Source: Aquincola sp. (lineage in GTDB: Bacteria; Pseudomonadota; Gammaproteobacteria; Burkholderiales; Burkholderiaceae_C). From it: a stretch of DNA of 64,000 bases. A model generated the notes under the pieces. That model was not told the origin of the DNA. It saw only the letters and a program-made list of their open reading frames with translations, and made no database searches. The DNA lies in contig JALHQP010000004.1 of assembly GCA_022841885.1 (NCBI GenBank), forward strand, positions 1 through 64,000, in the 5' to 3' direction. Below, in pieces: positions 29,917 through 50,653 of the stretch. Position 1 is the first letter of the stretch. Each line of letters opens with the position of its first letter. Position numbers and translations under genes: made by a program.

Positions 29917-31257
29917 ATGCACCCTAGACTGAGCAAACTGAGTTGGGCCTTTCTTGCTGTGGCATGTGTGGCGTGCGGCGGCGGCGGTGAGTCGGACAGT
30001 TCGGCGCCCATCGGAGGCGCTCCGCCGCCCAGTCCGGCGCCGGCCCCTGCGCCTTCTCCGGCCCCGGGCCCCGCGCCTGCCCCGAGCCCCGTACCTCCCG
30101 GAACGGCTGTCACCTACTACTTCTCCGACTGCCAAACCGGCGCCAGCGCGGGCTGCGTCCAGGGCAGCAACGCCAATGCGGGGACCAGCCCCTCTTCGCC
30201 CAAGCAGAACCTGTCGGGCTTCAATCTGAGTGCGCTGCCTGCGGGCACCCAACTCCTGTTCGCGCGCGGCGGGGCGTGGAACCTGGGCCAGGTGGGTGTA
30301 AATAACCGCAACACCACGGCGGCGAACCCGCTGGTGTTCGCCGACTACGGCTCTGGCGCGCTGCCGGTGCTGCGGGTGTCCTCTGGCGTGGGCTTCGCGC
30401 TCGGCGGCGGCTGGGGCAATACCGACAACGATGGTGGCTACACCTTCCGCAACCTCAACCTACGGGGCGTCGGAGCGAGCGGCGGCAATACGCACTGGGC
30501 CTTCTGGCTGGTGCAGAACGTGCGCGATGTCGTGATCGACGGCGTGGTCATCGAGGACTTCGGCTTCGGCATCGAGAGCAACGAAGGCAGCCAGTACGGT
30601 GTGCGCAACATTACCGTGCGCAACTCCACCATCCGTCGCAACGGCTCGATGGGCTGGCACGCGACCGGACTGATCCACGGCGTGCTGGCCGAGAACAACG
30701 TGTTCGAAGGCAACAACGCCTCGGGCAGCTTCATGAACCACGCCATTTACTGGGGCGGTGGCAACGGTAACGTGATCCGTAACAACCAGTTCCTGCGCAA
30801 CAGCGAGGTCAACGGCGTGTGCCAGGGTGGCAACATCACGATGCATGGCGTCATCGACGGGTTGGTGATCGAAAACAACACCATCGAACACGCGAACCCG
30901 GCGGCCGACACTTGCGGCGGCTACAACATCACGGCAGGCTACTCGACCGCCGAGTCGTTCCGCAACGTCGTAGTGCGCGGCAACACGACCATCAACGTGG
31001 GCATCGGCGCGGTCATCGCCAACTCGGCGCCCGGCATCGTGATCGAGCGCAATCGCTCGATCCTGTCGACGGCACGCGGCCACACGCTCGCCATGACCTA
31101 TGGCGAGAACGAGGTGCCCATGACCAGCCCTGTGGTGCGTGACAACGTGCTGTGCATCGTCTCAGGCGGGTCGATCACCAATCTACCTGGTGCCATCCTC
31201 TCCGGCAACACGGTGCGTACCGGCGCCGACTCCACCACCGGCGTCTGCGCCCGCTGA
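29917..31257 (+). CDS. Right-handed beta-helix lipoprotein, paralogue 1
   Basis: A 446-residue predicted lipoprotein. The signal peptide ends in ACVAC followed by GGGGES (Cys20 most likely lipidated). A Pro-Ala-Ser linker follows (about 35-62), then a module starting TYYFSDCQTGASAGC, which continues with [16 protein letters not shown]. The rest (about 130-446) is a parallel beta-helix with repeats of the form N-x-I/F-x-x-N, such as IENNTIEH and IRNNQFLRN. Conserved in all three paralogues here are MNHAIY-GGGNG and NGVCQGGN. Such folds occur in polysaccharide lyases, epimerases and hydrolases, and its place in an exopolysaccharide locus suggests the polymer is the substrate. The catalytic type cannot be assigned. 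Confidence 0.82.
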   Translation: MHPRLSKLSWAFLAVACVACGGGGESDSSAPIGGAPPPSPAPAPAPSPAPGPAPAPSPVPPGTAVTYYFSDCQTGASAGCVQGSNANAGTSPSSPKQNLSGFNLSALPAGTQLLFARGGAWNLGQVGVNNRNTTAANPLVFADYGSGALPVLRVSSGVGFALGGGWGNTDNDGGYTFRNLNLRGVGASGGNTHWAFWLVQNVRDVVIDGVVIEDFGFGIESNEGSQYGVRNITVRNSTIRRNGSMGWHATGLIHGVLAENNVFEGNNASGSFMNHAIYWGGGNGNVIRNNQFLRNSEVNGVCQGGNITMHGVIDGLVIENNTIEHANPAADTCGGYNITAGYSTAESFRNVVVRGNTTINVGIGAVIANSAPGIVIERNRSILSTARGHTLAMTYGENEVPMTSPVVRDNVLCIVSGGSITNLPGAILSGNTVRTGADSTTGVCAR

Positions 31258-31265
31258 CCGGCCGC

Positions 31266-48281: not shown

Positions 48282-48304
48282 TCTGAGGGTGTCGCGCAGA
48301 GGCG

Positions 48305-50653
48305 TCAGCGGGCGCAGGCGCCGGTGGTGGAGTCGGCGCCGGTGCGCACCGTGTTGCCGGAAACGATCGCGCCAGACAGGTTGGTGATCGAGCCGCTGGA
48401 GACGACGCACAGCACGTTGTCGCGCACCACGGGGCTGGTCATGGGCACCTCATTCTCACCATAGGTCAGCGCGAGCGTGTGGCCGCGGCTGAATCCCTGG
48501 ATCGAGCGATTGCGCTCGATGACGATGCCGGGCGCCGAGTTGGCGATGACCGCACCGATGCCGGCGTTGACGATCGTGTTGCCGCGCACCACGACATTGC
48601 GGAACGATTCGGTCGAGCTGTAGCCGGCGGTGATGTTGAGGCCGCCGCAGGTGTCGGCTGCCTGGTTCACGTGTTCGATCGTATTGTTCTCGATCGTCAG
48701 GCCGTCGATGACGCCGTGCATGGTCACGTTGCCGCCCTGGCACACGCCGTTGACTTCGGAGTTGCGCAGGAAGCGGTTGCCGCGGATCACGCTGCCGTTG
48801 CCACCACCCCAGTAGATGGCGTGGTTCATGAAGCTGCCCGAGGCATTGTTGCCCTCGAAGAGGTTGTTCTCGACCACGGCACGATGGATCAGGCCGGTGC
48901 TGTGGATCCCCATGGTCCAGTTGCCGCGGATCACCGAGTTGCGCAGCACCATGCCGGTCACGCCGTGCGGGCTGCCTTCGTTGGTTTCGATGGCGGTGCC
49001 GAAGCGCTCGATCTCCATGCCGTCGAAGACCACGTCACGCACGTTCTGCACCAGCCAGAAACCCCAGTGGGTATTGCTGCCGGCGGGTGCCGTACCGACC
49101 AGGCGCAGATTGCGGAAGGTGTAGCCACCGTCGTTGTCGGTGTTGCCCCAGCCGCCACCGACCATGAAGCCGATGCCTCCGTTGACGTTGAACACCGGCT
49201 TCGCGCCACTGCCGTAGTCGCCGAACAGCAGCGGAGCCGCCGCGCTGGAGTTGGGGTTGTGTACGCCCGTCTGGCCCAGACTCCAGGCGCCGCCGCGCGC
49301 GAACAGCAGTTGCGTGCCTGCAGCCAGGCCCGAGATGTTGATGCCCGACAGGTTCTGTTTGGGCGCCGTTTGCGTGCCCGGGTTGGCGTTGTTGCCTGGC
49401 ACGCAGCCTGCGGCAGCCCCAGCCTGACAGTCGCTGAAGTACAGGGCCGGGCCGGTCGGAGCCGGGGCAGGAGCCGGAGCCGGAGCAGGTGCCGGAGCAG
49501 GTGCCGGAGCCGGAGCCGGAGCAGGTGCCGGAGCAGGTGCCGGAGCAGGTGCCGGAGCAGGTGCCGGAGCAGGTGCCGGAGCAGGTGCCGGAGCCGGAGC
49601 CGGAGCCGGAGCAGGTGCCGGAGCCGGAGCCGGAGCCGGAGCCGGAGCCGGAGCGGTGCAAAGAGGCGGCACAGAACCGTTGTACGTAATGTGGGTTGAC
49701 CCAGTGGCAACGCACACGCGTCCGCGCACACGACTTGCCCCGACCGAGTTCACTTGGATGCGAGTGCCGTTGATCCTGAGATCACCCAGAACATCGGTGT
49801 TCAAGAAGATGAGCTTGTCTCGCCCAGAAAAGTCAACGTGCGGCAGATTCGGAAACTCCCAAGAGTTTTGGAAGCTCCCTGGCATCACGCACGTGGACAT
49901 TCCGCTGGTCGTCTCATTCAGCGAGTGCTGCGCTTGAGTTGGGTTCGGCGCGCGCAACATGGTCCTGGTAGGACCACAGTCGGCAAAGCCACCTTGCGCA
50001 TCTGACACCGAGCCTGGGAATCTCCAGAGGTCCGGGTTGTTGGTAATCAATCGTGGCGGATCAATCGCCCCAGGCGGAGCCGGAGCGGGTGCAGGAGCCG
50101 GAGCCGGCGCAGGAGCCGGGGCGGGCGCAGGAGCCGGGGCGGGCGCAGGCGCCGGGGCGGGCGCAGGCGCCGGGGCGGGTGCAGGCGCCGGGGCGGGTGC
50201 AGGCGCCGGAGCGGCAGCCGAGTAGTCGACCACGATCGACTTCGACGTGGCGTTCCCCGCGCCGTCATAGGCACGAACGATGATCTTGTTGCTGCCGCGA
50301 GCGAGCAACAGCGACGGCGCGCTCCAGGTGGCCGTGCCCCACGTGCCGACCTTCTGGGCGACGCCACTGCCGCCGCGGTCGTTGACCCAGGTCACCTTGC
50401 TGATCTTGCGGTCGTCGGCCGCGGAGCCCGACAGGCTCACTGTCGAGGTGGTCGTGGCATACGTACCGGCGTTCGTCGGGGCGCTGATCTCGATGCTCGG
50501 GACGCCACGGTCGATGCGCAGTTCCGCGTCTTCCCGTTCGGCCGCATTCGGGTCGATCGAGTCGGACTCGGTGGCGCCGCCGCACGCGGCGAGGATGACG
50601 CAGGCGGCGGCGACGGGCGCCAGCTTGAGATGGGCTTGCAGGAAACTGCTCAT
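48305..50653 (-). CDS. Large mosaic beta-helix lipoprotein, paralogue 3
   Basis: A 782-residue predicted lipoprotein. The signal peptide ends in VILAAC followed by GGATESDS. The order is: Ig-like domain (about 50-140, [15 protein letters not shown] ... [13 protein letters not shown]), a Pro-Ala linker (about 146-193), a separate domain of about 140 residues with several cysteines, a second Pro-Ala linker (about 333-398), then the conserved module [13 protein letters not shown] with [14 protein letters not shown] and the beta-helix to the end. The beta-helix part is very close to paralogue 1, including [13 protein letters not shown] and the ending [11 protein letters not shown]. It probably reaches out from the outer membrane to act on, or bind, the polysaccharide. 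An alternative start at 50683 adds ten residues and weakens the signal peptide. Confidence 0.82.
49459..49655 (-). repeat. Hexanucleotide repeat encoding Pro-Ala linker 2
   Basis: About 33 tandem copies of a six-base unit (plus-strand GGAGCC, GGAGCA or GGTGCC), read on the minus strand as alternating Pro and Ala codons. A higher-order 12-base unit GGAGCAGGTGCC recurs. Because each unit is two codons, gain or loss of units changes linker length without shifting frame. Confidence 0.9.
50074..50217 (-). repeat. Hexanucleotide repeat encoding Pro-Ala linker 1
   Basis: About 24 six-base units with an 18-base higher-order unit (GGCGCCGGGGCGGGTGCA and variants). It encodes the first Pro-Ala linker of paralogue 3. 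Its sub-repeat pattern differs from linker 2, so the two tracts expanded separately or have diverged. Confidence 0.9.

Follow-up and report, generated by a model that had tools for sequence, protein, structure and literature searches.

The locus considered here raises the question of why three paralogous exported proteins should be encoded within a single exopolysaccharide (EPS) gene cluster. The window analysed, a stretch of 64,000 nucleotides from Aquincola sp., encodes three such paralogues (W1, W2 and W3) with a common right-handed beta-helix core of ~380 residues, all within one XrtB/EpsDEFG EPS locus. The explanation that we favour, and consider rather probable, is that they are exported beta-helix enzymes which cut the EPS of their own locus, are placed differently and have a core in common with phages; such a depolymerase would probably be lyase-type and act in the manner of Vibrio RbmB.

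Three paralogues and their locus

In a core alignment of 391 columns W1 was 77% identical to W3 and 53% identical to W2. A search of the source genome (240 contigs, 97.5% complete; E-value cut-off: 0.001) recovered exactly three copies of the core, all in the EPS locus, which agrees with the three paralogous secreted proteins reported in the preliminary description. The sequence motifs that it had listed as shared ([31 protein letters not shown] and NGVCQGGN) are present in all three, the only deviation being the P of 'PAGT', which is A in W3.

The paralogues differ in their N-terminal parts. W1 (29917..31257, plus strand) has a lipobox-like signal, a Pro/Ala/Ser linker of ~40 residues and the core at 30109-31254. 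W2 (37448..38707, plus strand) has a plain signal peptide ending in ANA-Q, a linker that is almost absent and the core at 37568-38704. W3 spans 48305..50683 if read from a GTG codon and 48305-50653 from an ATG, the ATG at 50653 being the likely start; it carries a lipobox-like LAAC signal, a Big_7 Ig-like domain (about 50282-50500), two Pro/Ala-rich linkers separated by a middle segment of ~140 residues, and the core at 48308-49450. The span 48305-50653 given earlier for this gene thus holds from the ATG, but the gene lies on the minus strand and is not encoded by the plus strand. The middle segment had no Pfam match at E 0.1, and Pfam searches with the N-terminal parts of W3 and seven relatives (one relative searched whole) gave none over the cut-off. 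Signal peptides and lipoboxes were assigned, in window copies and relatives alike, by pattern matching and by eye, and on this basis the division into two lipoprotein-like forms with Pro-rich linkers and one plain secreted form was reproduced; we infer that W1 and W3 are lipid-anchored.

Upstream of W1, on the plus strand, the locus comprises an EpsI-type DUF3485 protein (16108..16791), homologues of epsD, epsE, epsF and epsG (20335..24672; EpsF with 416 bits, slightly below its cut-off of 422.75), the exosortase XrtB (24669..25628; 288.9 bits, cut-off 275), and an O-antigen-ligase-like protein and an acyltransferase (25655..28452; Wzy_C 28.7 bits, below the cut-off of 31.7). For the exosortase the XrtV model scored slightly higher than XrtB (295.6 bits), yet below its own cut-off of 313. 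A GT4 glycosyltransferase (38736..39911, minus strand), a conserved neighbour of core genes in other genomes, lies tail-to-tail with W2 at a distance of 28 bp and is followed by genes for an SGNH/AlgX-like protein, a GMC oxidoreductase, an SDR and a Wzx-type flippase (39968..45300, minus strand). Tail-to-tail with W3 lies a two-subunit molybdenum oxidoreductase (45540..48241, plus strand) composed of a 2Fe-2S small subunit recognised by eye (about 45540-46025) and a large subunit with a Tat-like SRRAWIGG (about 46022-48241); a homologue adjoins a core gene in one relative (L009) and is found near core genes in two genomes (G238, G368). Among 20 locus frames scanned no sugar-nucleotide dehydrogenase was detected, which bears on whether this polymer contains a uronic acid, as a lyase substrate must. 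Neither Rfam families nor tRNAs were found in the window.

Fold and candidate active site of the core

Modelled with AlphaFold2 (pLDDT 89.5, pTM 0.91), the W1 core is predicted to form a right-handed beta-helix. The core had been described as two-part, and while its sharing among the three genes stands, the Cys-containing opening module proved in this model to be the helix cap and first coil rather than a separate domain. No specific Pfam or NCBIfam family spans the core; the generic fold model PF13229 (Beta_helix) matches W2 above its curated cut-off, whereas W1 and W3 gave no match at E 1. A NosD-type copper protein was considered for W2 and rejected, the score being just below the Pfam cut-off.

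Compared with solved beta-helices, the W1 core model reaches Z 31.5, and its top matches are mostly carbohydrate-active enzymes (BT_1002, the best at Z 31.5, RbmB, inulin fructotransferases and AlgE). The pneumococcal adhesin PfbA stands in the same list at Z 30.6, tied with the enzymes, so the fold alone is no proof of catalysis. This match, the Big_7 domain in W3 and the lipoprotein-like anchors with long linkers are what non-catalytic, adhesin-like matrix proteins would lead one to expect, the cores in that case binding polysaccharide and holding the EPS to the outer membrane at graded distances. We regard such a role as very unlikely, since one window copy is unanchored and binding alone does not explain why His211, Tyr214, Cys238 and His246 are kept in 40-41 of 41 cores; phage beta-helices, moreover, are commonly enzymes.

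The closest parallel to the explanation we favour is RbmB of Vibrio cholerae, a beta-helix lyase of the organism's own VPS with a predicted signal peptide (PMC11637428). RbmB resembles the W1 core over 306 residues (Z 31.3, 2.5 A), but identity in the structural alignment is 13%, it is absent from the seven sequence-profile matches obtained at E 1 in the PDB profile search, and activity of the window proteins is predicted only. All three window copies lie within an EPS locus and RbmB, too, is encoded together with EPS genes, but as a single unanchored protein, in contrast to the three differently tethered window copies.

Sequence-profile comparison with the PDB instead gave a GH136 lacto-N-biosidase as best match (E 5.6e-12). 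Together with the top Z of the glycoside hydrolase BT_1002, this is the case for beta-helix glycoside hydrolases (GH136-like or BT_1002-like) acting on the EPS, a reading that we consider unlikely. The best GH136 match is confined to residues 13-103 (6kqs), within the N-terminal cap and first coils, and no significant sequence match extends past residue ~145 (7v6i, 16-145), for which reason assignment to GH136 on this match was rejected; GH136 entries were matched in the structure comparison as well, as are many beta-helices. The best-kept acidic columns (D/E144 in 41/41, E195 in 39/41, E255 and E313 each in 40/41) take turns with Arg columns from coil to coil, in what looks like a structural ladder. 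Little is then left from which a catalytic acid pair could be drawn, namely D7 and E282 (acidic in 38/41), 335 (36/41) and 147 (35/41).

The candidate active site for which we argue lies within 30739..30846 of W1 (plus strand) and comprises H211 (30739-30741), Y214 (30748-30750), C238 (30820-30822) and H246 (30844-30846), which would cluster as judged from strand order only. His211, Tyr214 and Cys238 are kept in 41/41 aligned cores and His246 in 40/41. This alignment omitted the partial L021 and L023 as well as four further complete copies (L071, L074, L085, L086), all four of which keep the residues; in an extended alignment of 49 rows, to which these four and fragments were added (L088 repeating L071), every added row covering the positions keeps them. 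No characterised enzyme was found with this set of residues at its active site. Since a common beta-helix motif is similar to the HxxY segment, part of the conservation of this segment may be structural.

His and Tyr at a proposed catalytic site, and beta-helices matching at Z 26.6-30.1 with 12-18% identity (AlgE4, AlgE6, AlgG), are also what the core has in common with the mannuronan epimerases AlgG/AlgE. Solved mannuronan 5-epimerases gave a weak profile match (E 0.003), and according to published work lyases and epimerases have their mechanism and catalytic residues in common and the alginate gene cluster encodes AlgG (PMC4444821). The cores could on this evidence be C5-epimerases which modify EPS sugars in place, as AlgG/AlgE do on alginate, and tune stiffness with no cutting. 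We think this improbable: the DPHD of AlgG/AlgE occurs in 0/41 cores and 0/49 rows (one core has DPH elsewhere), so that the AlgG/AlgE class was rejected, and two phage copies look virion-borne. Enzymes on virions usually cleave their polymer and are not known to epimerise it as a rule.

Relatives in other genomes and in phages

Linkage to eps loci elsewhere, which the preliminary description had made a test of its reading, is mostly borne out. In 8/11 genomes of the family with the core (4/6 genera) XrtB and the core share a contig and lie no more than ~31 kb apart, a limit set after the distances had been seen. It is present in 8/11 genomes with the core as against 110/388 without (Fisher p 0.003, genomes treated as independent). 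At E 1e-130 an orthologue of the GT4 gene was detected in 4/399 genomes. Anchored copies of the core are present in each of them, and the GT4 gene adjoins a core gene in these four and in G430. In both surveys mostly four candidates were scored per genome. Linkage is not invariable, however: G253, G235, G359 and Acidovorax are exceptions to the statement that the core is always linked to EpsDEFG/XrtB, although the gene of G235 is at a contig end and the contig of G359 measures 19 kb, and in both cases a linked gene might have escaped notice. Among 17 handles searched, representing 16 distinct genomes (G253 = G426), the core occurs without a Poly_export gene in four (three Acidovorax and one Desulfobacterales MAG), and in Aquabacterium the two genes are on different contigs. 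Judged by eye, the core gene is beside flagellar genes in two Rhizobacter MAGs, and some other members adjoin unrelated transporters.

Flanking genes were picked with a home-made codon-position score. Several handles are repeats (L015 duplicates L007; L075/L077, L076/L079/L084, L080/L082 and L081/L083 represent one contig each). One core tree omits L051_11751 and L063 (long branches), L080, L081 and L071, and another keeps L051_11751 and L063. Six weak core matches were observed in G434. A plasmid search with the core gave only Azospirillum proteins (25.5-26.5%), and no literature on the core family was found, as judged by titles and abstracts.

The core was also identified in six viral genomes, near genes for terminase, portal, head protein or head protease (L085, 97% like L078, was left out of this count). 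A first scan of viral genomes with query A1 yielded none and later queries found members; no core was found among INPHARED phages, and a DNA search with two neighbour genes of the Rubrivivax phage gave partial matches only, in four phage records. A signal peptide is present in four of the six phage copies, which sets them apart from usual virion proteins and from the tailspikes of Sf6 and 'Dettilon', which resemble the core in fold (Z 27-29.5; 9-13% identity) and in the kind of structural module in which it is found. The remaining two, L080 and L081, are the only virion-module genes among the relatives without a secretion signal, and look virion-borne; W1, W2 and W3, in the EPS locus and with signals, are not virion-module genes. 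L080 and L081 retain H211, Y214, C238 and H246 and do not have C8, C16, C269 and C349. Loss of C8 and C16 is not specific to unexported copies, since the secreted host copy L057 is also without them.

Tethers and placement of the cores

Signal-to-core distances in the window are 17, 48 and 382 residues. Graded distances within one EPS locus were observed in three lineages, the window among them, and seem to have evolved repeatedly. In W3 (minus strand) the core-proximal Pro/Ala linker is encoded by a 12-bp unit repeated 17 times (49457..49659) and the distal one by an 18/54-bp unit (50076..50214). Two cores of Methylibium are 98% identical while their N-termini are unalignable; the DNA of this pair is 95.7% identical over 1221 bp. 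The matching stretch begins some 71-76 nt ahead of the core, and the sequences before it do not align. These observations suggest recombination in repetitive linker DNA, from which new tether-core combinations would arise.

The candidate active-site residues are identical in W1, W2 and W3, which makes a difference in where the copies act more likely than one in the reaction that they would catalyse. The earlier proposal of a set of polymer-processing enzymes is upheld as regards differing reach, which gains support from the XrtB/EPS linkage, the graded anchoring in three lineages and the phage modules, but differing activities are unsupported. Under the explanation we favour, the EPS of the locus would be cut most likely by His/Tyr-assisted beta-elimination (hydrolysis being possible). 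W1 would keep the core close to the outer membrane on a short Pro-rich tether, W3 would keep it far out on a tether of ~380 residues, and W2 would release the same catalytic core free, which would allow trimming of polymer on the cell surface itself, within the attached layer and out in the matrix around it.

Phages would direct the core at polymer of this kind, in some cases by secretion from the cell they infect and, where the signal peptide is absent, probably on the virion. More tentatively, and with somewhat less confidence than doubt, one polysaccharide-cutting core may circulate between Burkholderiales EPS loci and phages and be delivered in three ways (on the host tether series, phage-encoded and secreted, or attached to the virion), the linkers serving as the exchange point for re-tethering. 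The secreted phage form, whose gene lies near head genes and is thus presumably expressed late in infection, would open the matrix before or at lysis.

Since copies of this putative matrix enzyme seem to have been set at graded tether lengths repeatedly, reach becomes a testable variable. The phage copies offer an independent clue to the polymer cut by the host enzyme, L080 and L081 help to separate cysteines that are maybe needed only for export folding from residues kept for function, and the GT4 neighbour allows a concrete guess at the bond cut. The core common to both hints that cells and phages cut the same slime and, if this is true, it would provide a tool to disperse an uncharacterised Burkholderiales EPS.

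Paralogues of the exopolysaccharide locus

The core, a right-handed beta-helix part of about 380 residues, is encoded by W1 (29917-31257, plus strand), W2 (37448-38707, plus strand) and W3 (48305-50683, minus strand, ATG start at 50653), which were the only core matches in the 4.08-Mb assembly. The three related proteins with a common core reported in the preliminary description are real, the cores of W1 and W3 being 77% and those of W1 and W2 53% identical. EpsD, EpsE, EpsG and XrtB are encoded around them, together with an EpsF homologue (slightly below its cut-off), an O-antigen-ligase-like protein (below its cut-off), an acyltransferase, GT2, GT4, an SGNH/AlgX-like protein, a GMC oxidoreductase, an SDR, a Wzx-like flippase and a molybdenum oxidoreductase with a Tat-like signal. 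Each copy has a tail-to-tail neighbour: the frame at 31266-32924 for W1 (no Pfam match; a membrane protein by eye), the GT4 gene for W2 and the molybdenum enzyme for W3.

The molybdenum enzyme is IorAB-like with two subunits (45540-48241), and its homologues adjoin or lie near core genes in locus L009 and genomes G238 and G368; it might be an exported aldehyde oxidase making carboxylated exopolysaccharide (EPS) sugars. The G+C content of the EPS region (20001-52000) is 0.633-0.664 per 4 kb, below that of the three complete blocks on its right (0.687-0.702) and of most blocks on its left, and third-position G+C of codons falls there from about 0.9 to about 0.70-0.87, a base composition such as a transferred island shows. 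The plus strand immediately to the right of the locus has two very long frames (51327-62690; third-position G+C about 0.9) that by eye resemble a polyketide/nonribosomal peptide synthase cluster.

Distribution and linkage of the core

Scanning of named genomes gave 17 core loci, of which 14 belonged to Burkholderiales (Rubrivivax, Methylibium, Rhizobacter, Aquabacterium, Acidovorax, Undibacterium and others) and the others to a Desulfobacterales MAG, a 'Deltaproteobacteria' MAG and Rariglobus; the match in one locus (L023) spans 17 residues only. The distribution is patchy, since among 60 sampled relatives only the genome studied here had the core (E-value 0.001) and four other genomes of its genus (61-100% complete) had none. 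In the wider family the core was found in 11 of 399 sampled genomes (E-value 1e-10).

XrtB was above its cut-off in 118 of these 399 genomes. In 8 of the 11 core-bearing genomes (G000, G398, G238, G368, G297, G124, G341 and G276), and by genus in 4 of 6, it shared a contig with a core gene at a distance of up to about 31 kb, a limit chosen after the distances had been seen; in G253, G235 and G359 it did not. DUF3485 (EpsI) was encoded at most about 2.5 kb from a core gene in six of the 11 (G276, G341, G124, G297, G238 and G368), at 13 kb in the window and at about 48 kb in G398; it was on a different contig in G253 and G359 and was not found in G235. The GT4 gene beside W2 had orthologues (73-74% identity, E-value 1e-130) in three further genomes of the 399; together with the genome studied here, these make up precisely the set carrying several anchored copies. 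GT4 adjoins a core gene in these four genomes and in Rhizobacter MAG G430, and four of the five pairs are tail-to-tail.

A strict link of the core to EPS genes is contradicted by core-bearing genomes in which no Poly_export gene was found (Acidovorax facilis, A. radicis, an Acidovorax MAG and the Desulfobacterales MAG) and by core copies beside flagellar genes in two Rhizobacter MAGs (translations judged by eye). When the flanks of the 17 loci (at most 10 kb, several much shorter) were searched using the window genes as queries, EPS genes were found in L008, the molybdenum enzyme in L009 and a weak acyltransferase match (35%) in L023, and the other 14 had no match within these flanks.

On two short contigs of G430, a complete linker-less copy immediately follows the end of another copy (L086, G430:C360) and a copy end lies beside GT4 (L087, G430:C572); these are probably another multi-copy locus split by assembly.

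Reach series, core exchange and phage copies

Reach was counted as the residues between the hydrophobic signal and the core, with signals, lipoboxes and anchors assigned by pattern matching and by eye. It is 17, 48 and 382 for W2, W1 and W3, 15, 48 and 155 in a Methylibium MAG (L008), 10, 16, 86 and 191 in G238, and 13, 14, 90 and 171 near XrtB in G368, which has two further copies elsewhere (15 and 208). Since G238 and G368 belong to one genus, the series represent three lineages. In the phylogenetic tree W1 pairs with W3 (96/91) and two Methylibium copies pair together (100/100); part of the series therefore arose separately.

These Methylibium copies share 95.7% DNA identity along a 1221-bp stretch that starts about 71-76 nt ahead of the core, with no alignment upstream of it. 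W1 and W3 (79% DNA identity) are alignable from inside the linker onward, the W3 linkers are tandem repeats, and four contigs out of 17 (L009, L011, L013 and L014) break off no more than 70 bp upstream of the core. From these sequences we infer that the linker repeats may be the site at which cores and anchors are exchanged.

The copy at L009:59-2600 adjoins the molybdenum enzyme as W3 does, but in the tree its core groups with W2, a mismatch of place and core that core swapping would produce. Several copies (the L012 N-terminal region, L046:14833, L008:366, L010 and L057) carry a small domain between signal and linker (near YxLCAxEGQxCxFSGTxxVxYGAG...KACYA), which may bind polysaccharide; the four copies scanned had no Pfam match over the cut-off.

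The nearest relative after W1 and W3 themselves (L007/L015, 71-73%) lies on a contig of ~52 kb that looks like a temperate phage and encodes an integrase, a large terminase, a portal protein, a head protease, a major head protein, a tape measure protein and a central fibre. Scans of viral contigs yielded six with the core: it shares a module with terminase and/or portal genes in L076, L077 and L078, lies near the major head protein in L080 and L081, in the latter with an SGNH esterase-like gene next to it and a head closure protein and tailspike encoded nearby, and the sixth (L085) is 97% like L078. In L007, L076, L077 and L078 the core is preceded by a signal peptide and a cysteine-bearing segment, and in all of these except L076 by a poly-Pro linker; L080 and L081 have a short peptide and Pro linker, with no signal peptide. 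The tree places L007 as sister to W1 and W3 (100/100) and L076 as sister to the anchored group of G238 and G368 (100/99), which suggests that phage and host exchanged the core more than once.

The Rubrivivax phage (L067, G423:C36 about 45000-51100) also encodes a reverse transcriptase (phrog_1423) and has three ~90-bp repeats (88-94% alike) outside the beta-helix gene, possibly a diversity-generating retroelement.

Fold, conserved residues and putative function

The W1 core, modelled with 18 aligned cores, gave a confident right-handed beta-helix (pLDDT 89.5, pTM 0.91). Structure comparison returned many near-tied matches (Z 28-31.5), including BT_1002, Vibrio cholerae RbmB, inulin fructotransferases, AlgE modules, adhesin PfbA and tailspikes, and the sequence-profile match to GH136 lacto-N-biosidase (E-value 5.6e-12) was confined to residues 13-103; the predicted fold therefore says only that the core is most likely carbohydrate-active. 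In 41 aligned cores H211, Y214 and C238 (W1 core numbering) are invariant and H246 varies once, in agreement with a second alignment including further copies; the AlgG/AlgE DPHD motif was not found in the aligned cores. Judged by strand order in the model, Y214 and H246 would face the groove. The phage copies L080 and L081 retain these four residues and lack C8, C16, C269 and C349, as expected for cytoplasmic folding; loss of C8 and C16 is not peculiar to the unexported type, since the secreted host copy L057 also lacks both.

One position on nine successive coils (residues 114-344, window about 30448-31140) carries a charge ladder beside an Asn ladder, Arg/Lys at 114, 171, 224, 290 and 344 alternating with Asp/Glu at 144, 195, 255 and 313 (in W1 R114, D144, R171, E195, R224, E255, R290, E313 and R344). 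Its columns are kept in 36 to 41 of the 41 cores, and we read its role as structural.

We propose that the exported cores would cut the EPS made by their own locus, at a place set by tether length. Activity on polysaccharide is likely and action on the EPS of the own locus somewhat less so; elimination, as against hydrolysis, has about an even chance of being the chemistry. Presence in phage structural modules favours cutting over binding or epimerising. A His/Tyr lyase mechanism would be compatible with the conserved residues, because a His and a Tyr serve in alginate epimerases, to which lyases are described as mechanistically related (excerpts of PMC4444821). RbmB, described in excerpts of PMC11637428 as a beta-helix lyase made by the cell for its own EPS, would be a precedent for W1-W3.

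The earlier suggestion of polymer-processing enzymes with different reach is mostly upheld by the XrtB linkage (8/11 genomes), the reach series in three lineages and the occurrence of the core in phages, with exceptions to EPS linkage (Acidovorax and others). Beta-helix enzymes of EPS loci are already known as a kind, of which the core family and its arrangement are a new form; the graded reach with swapped cores and the phage copies go beyond the preliminary description.
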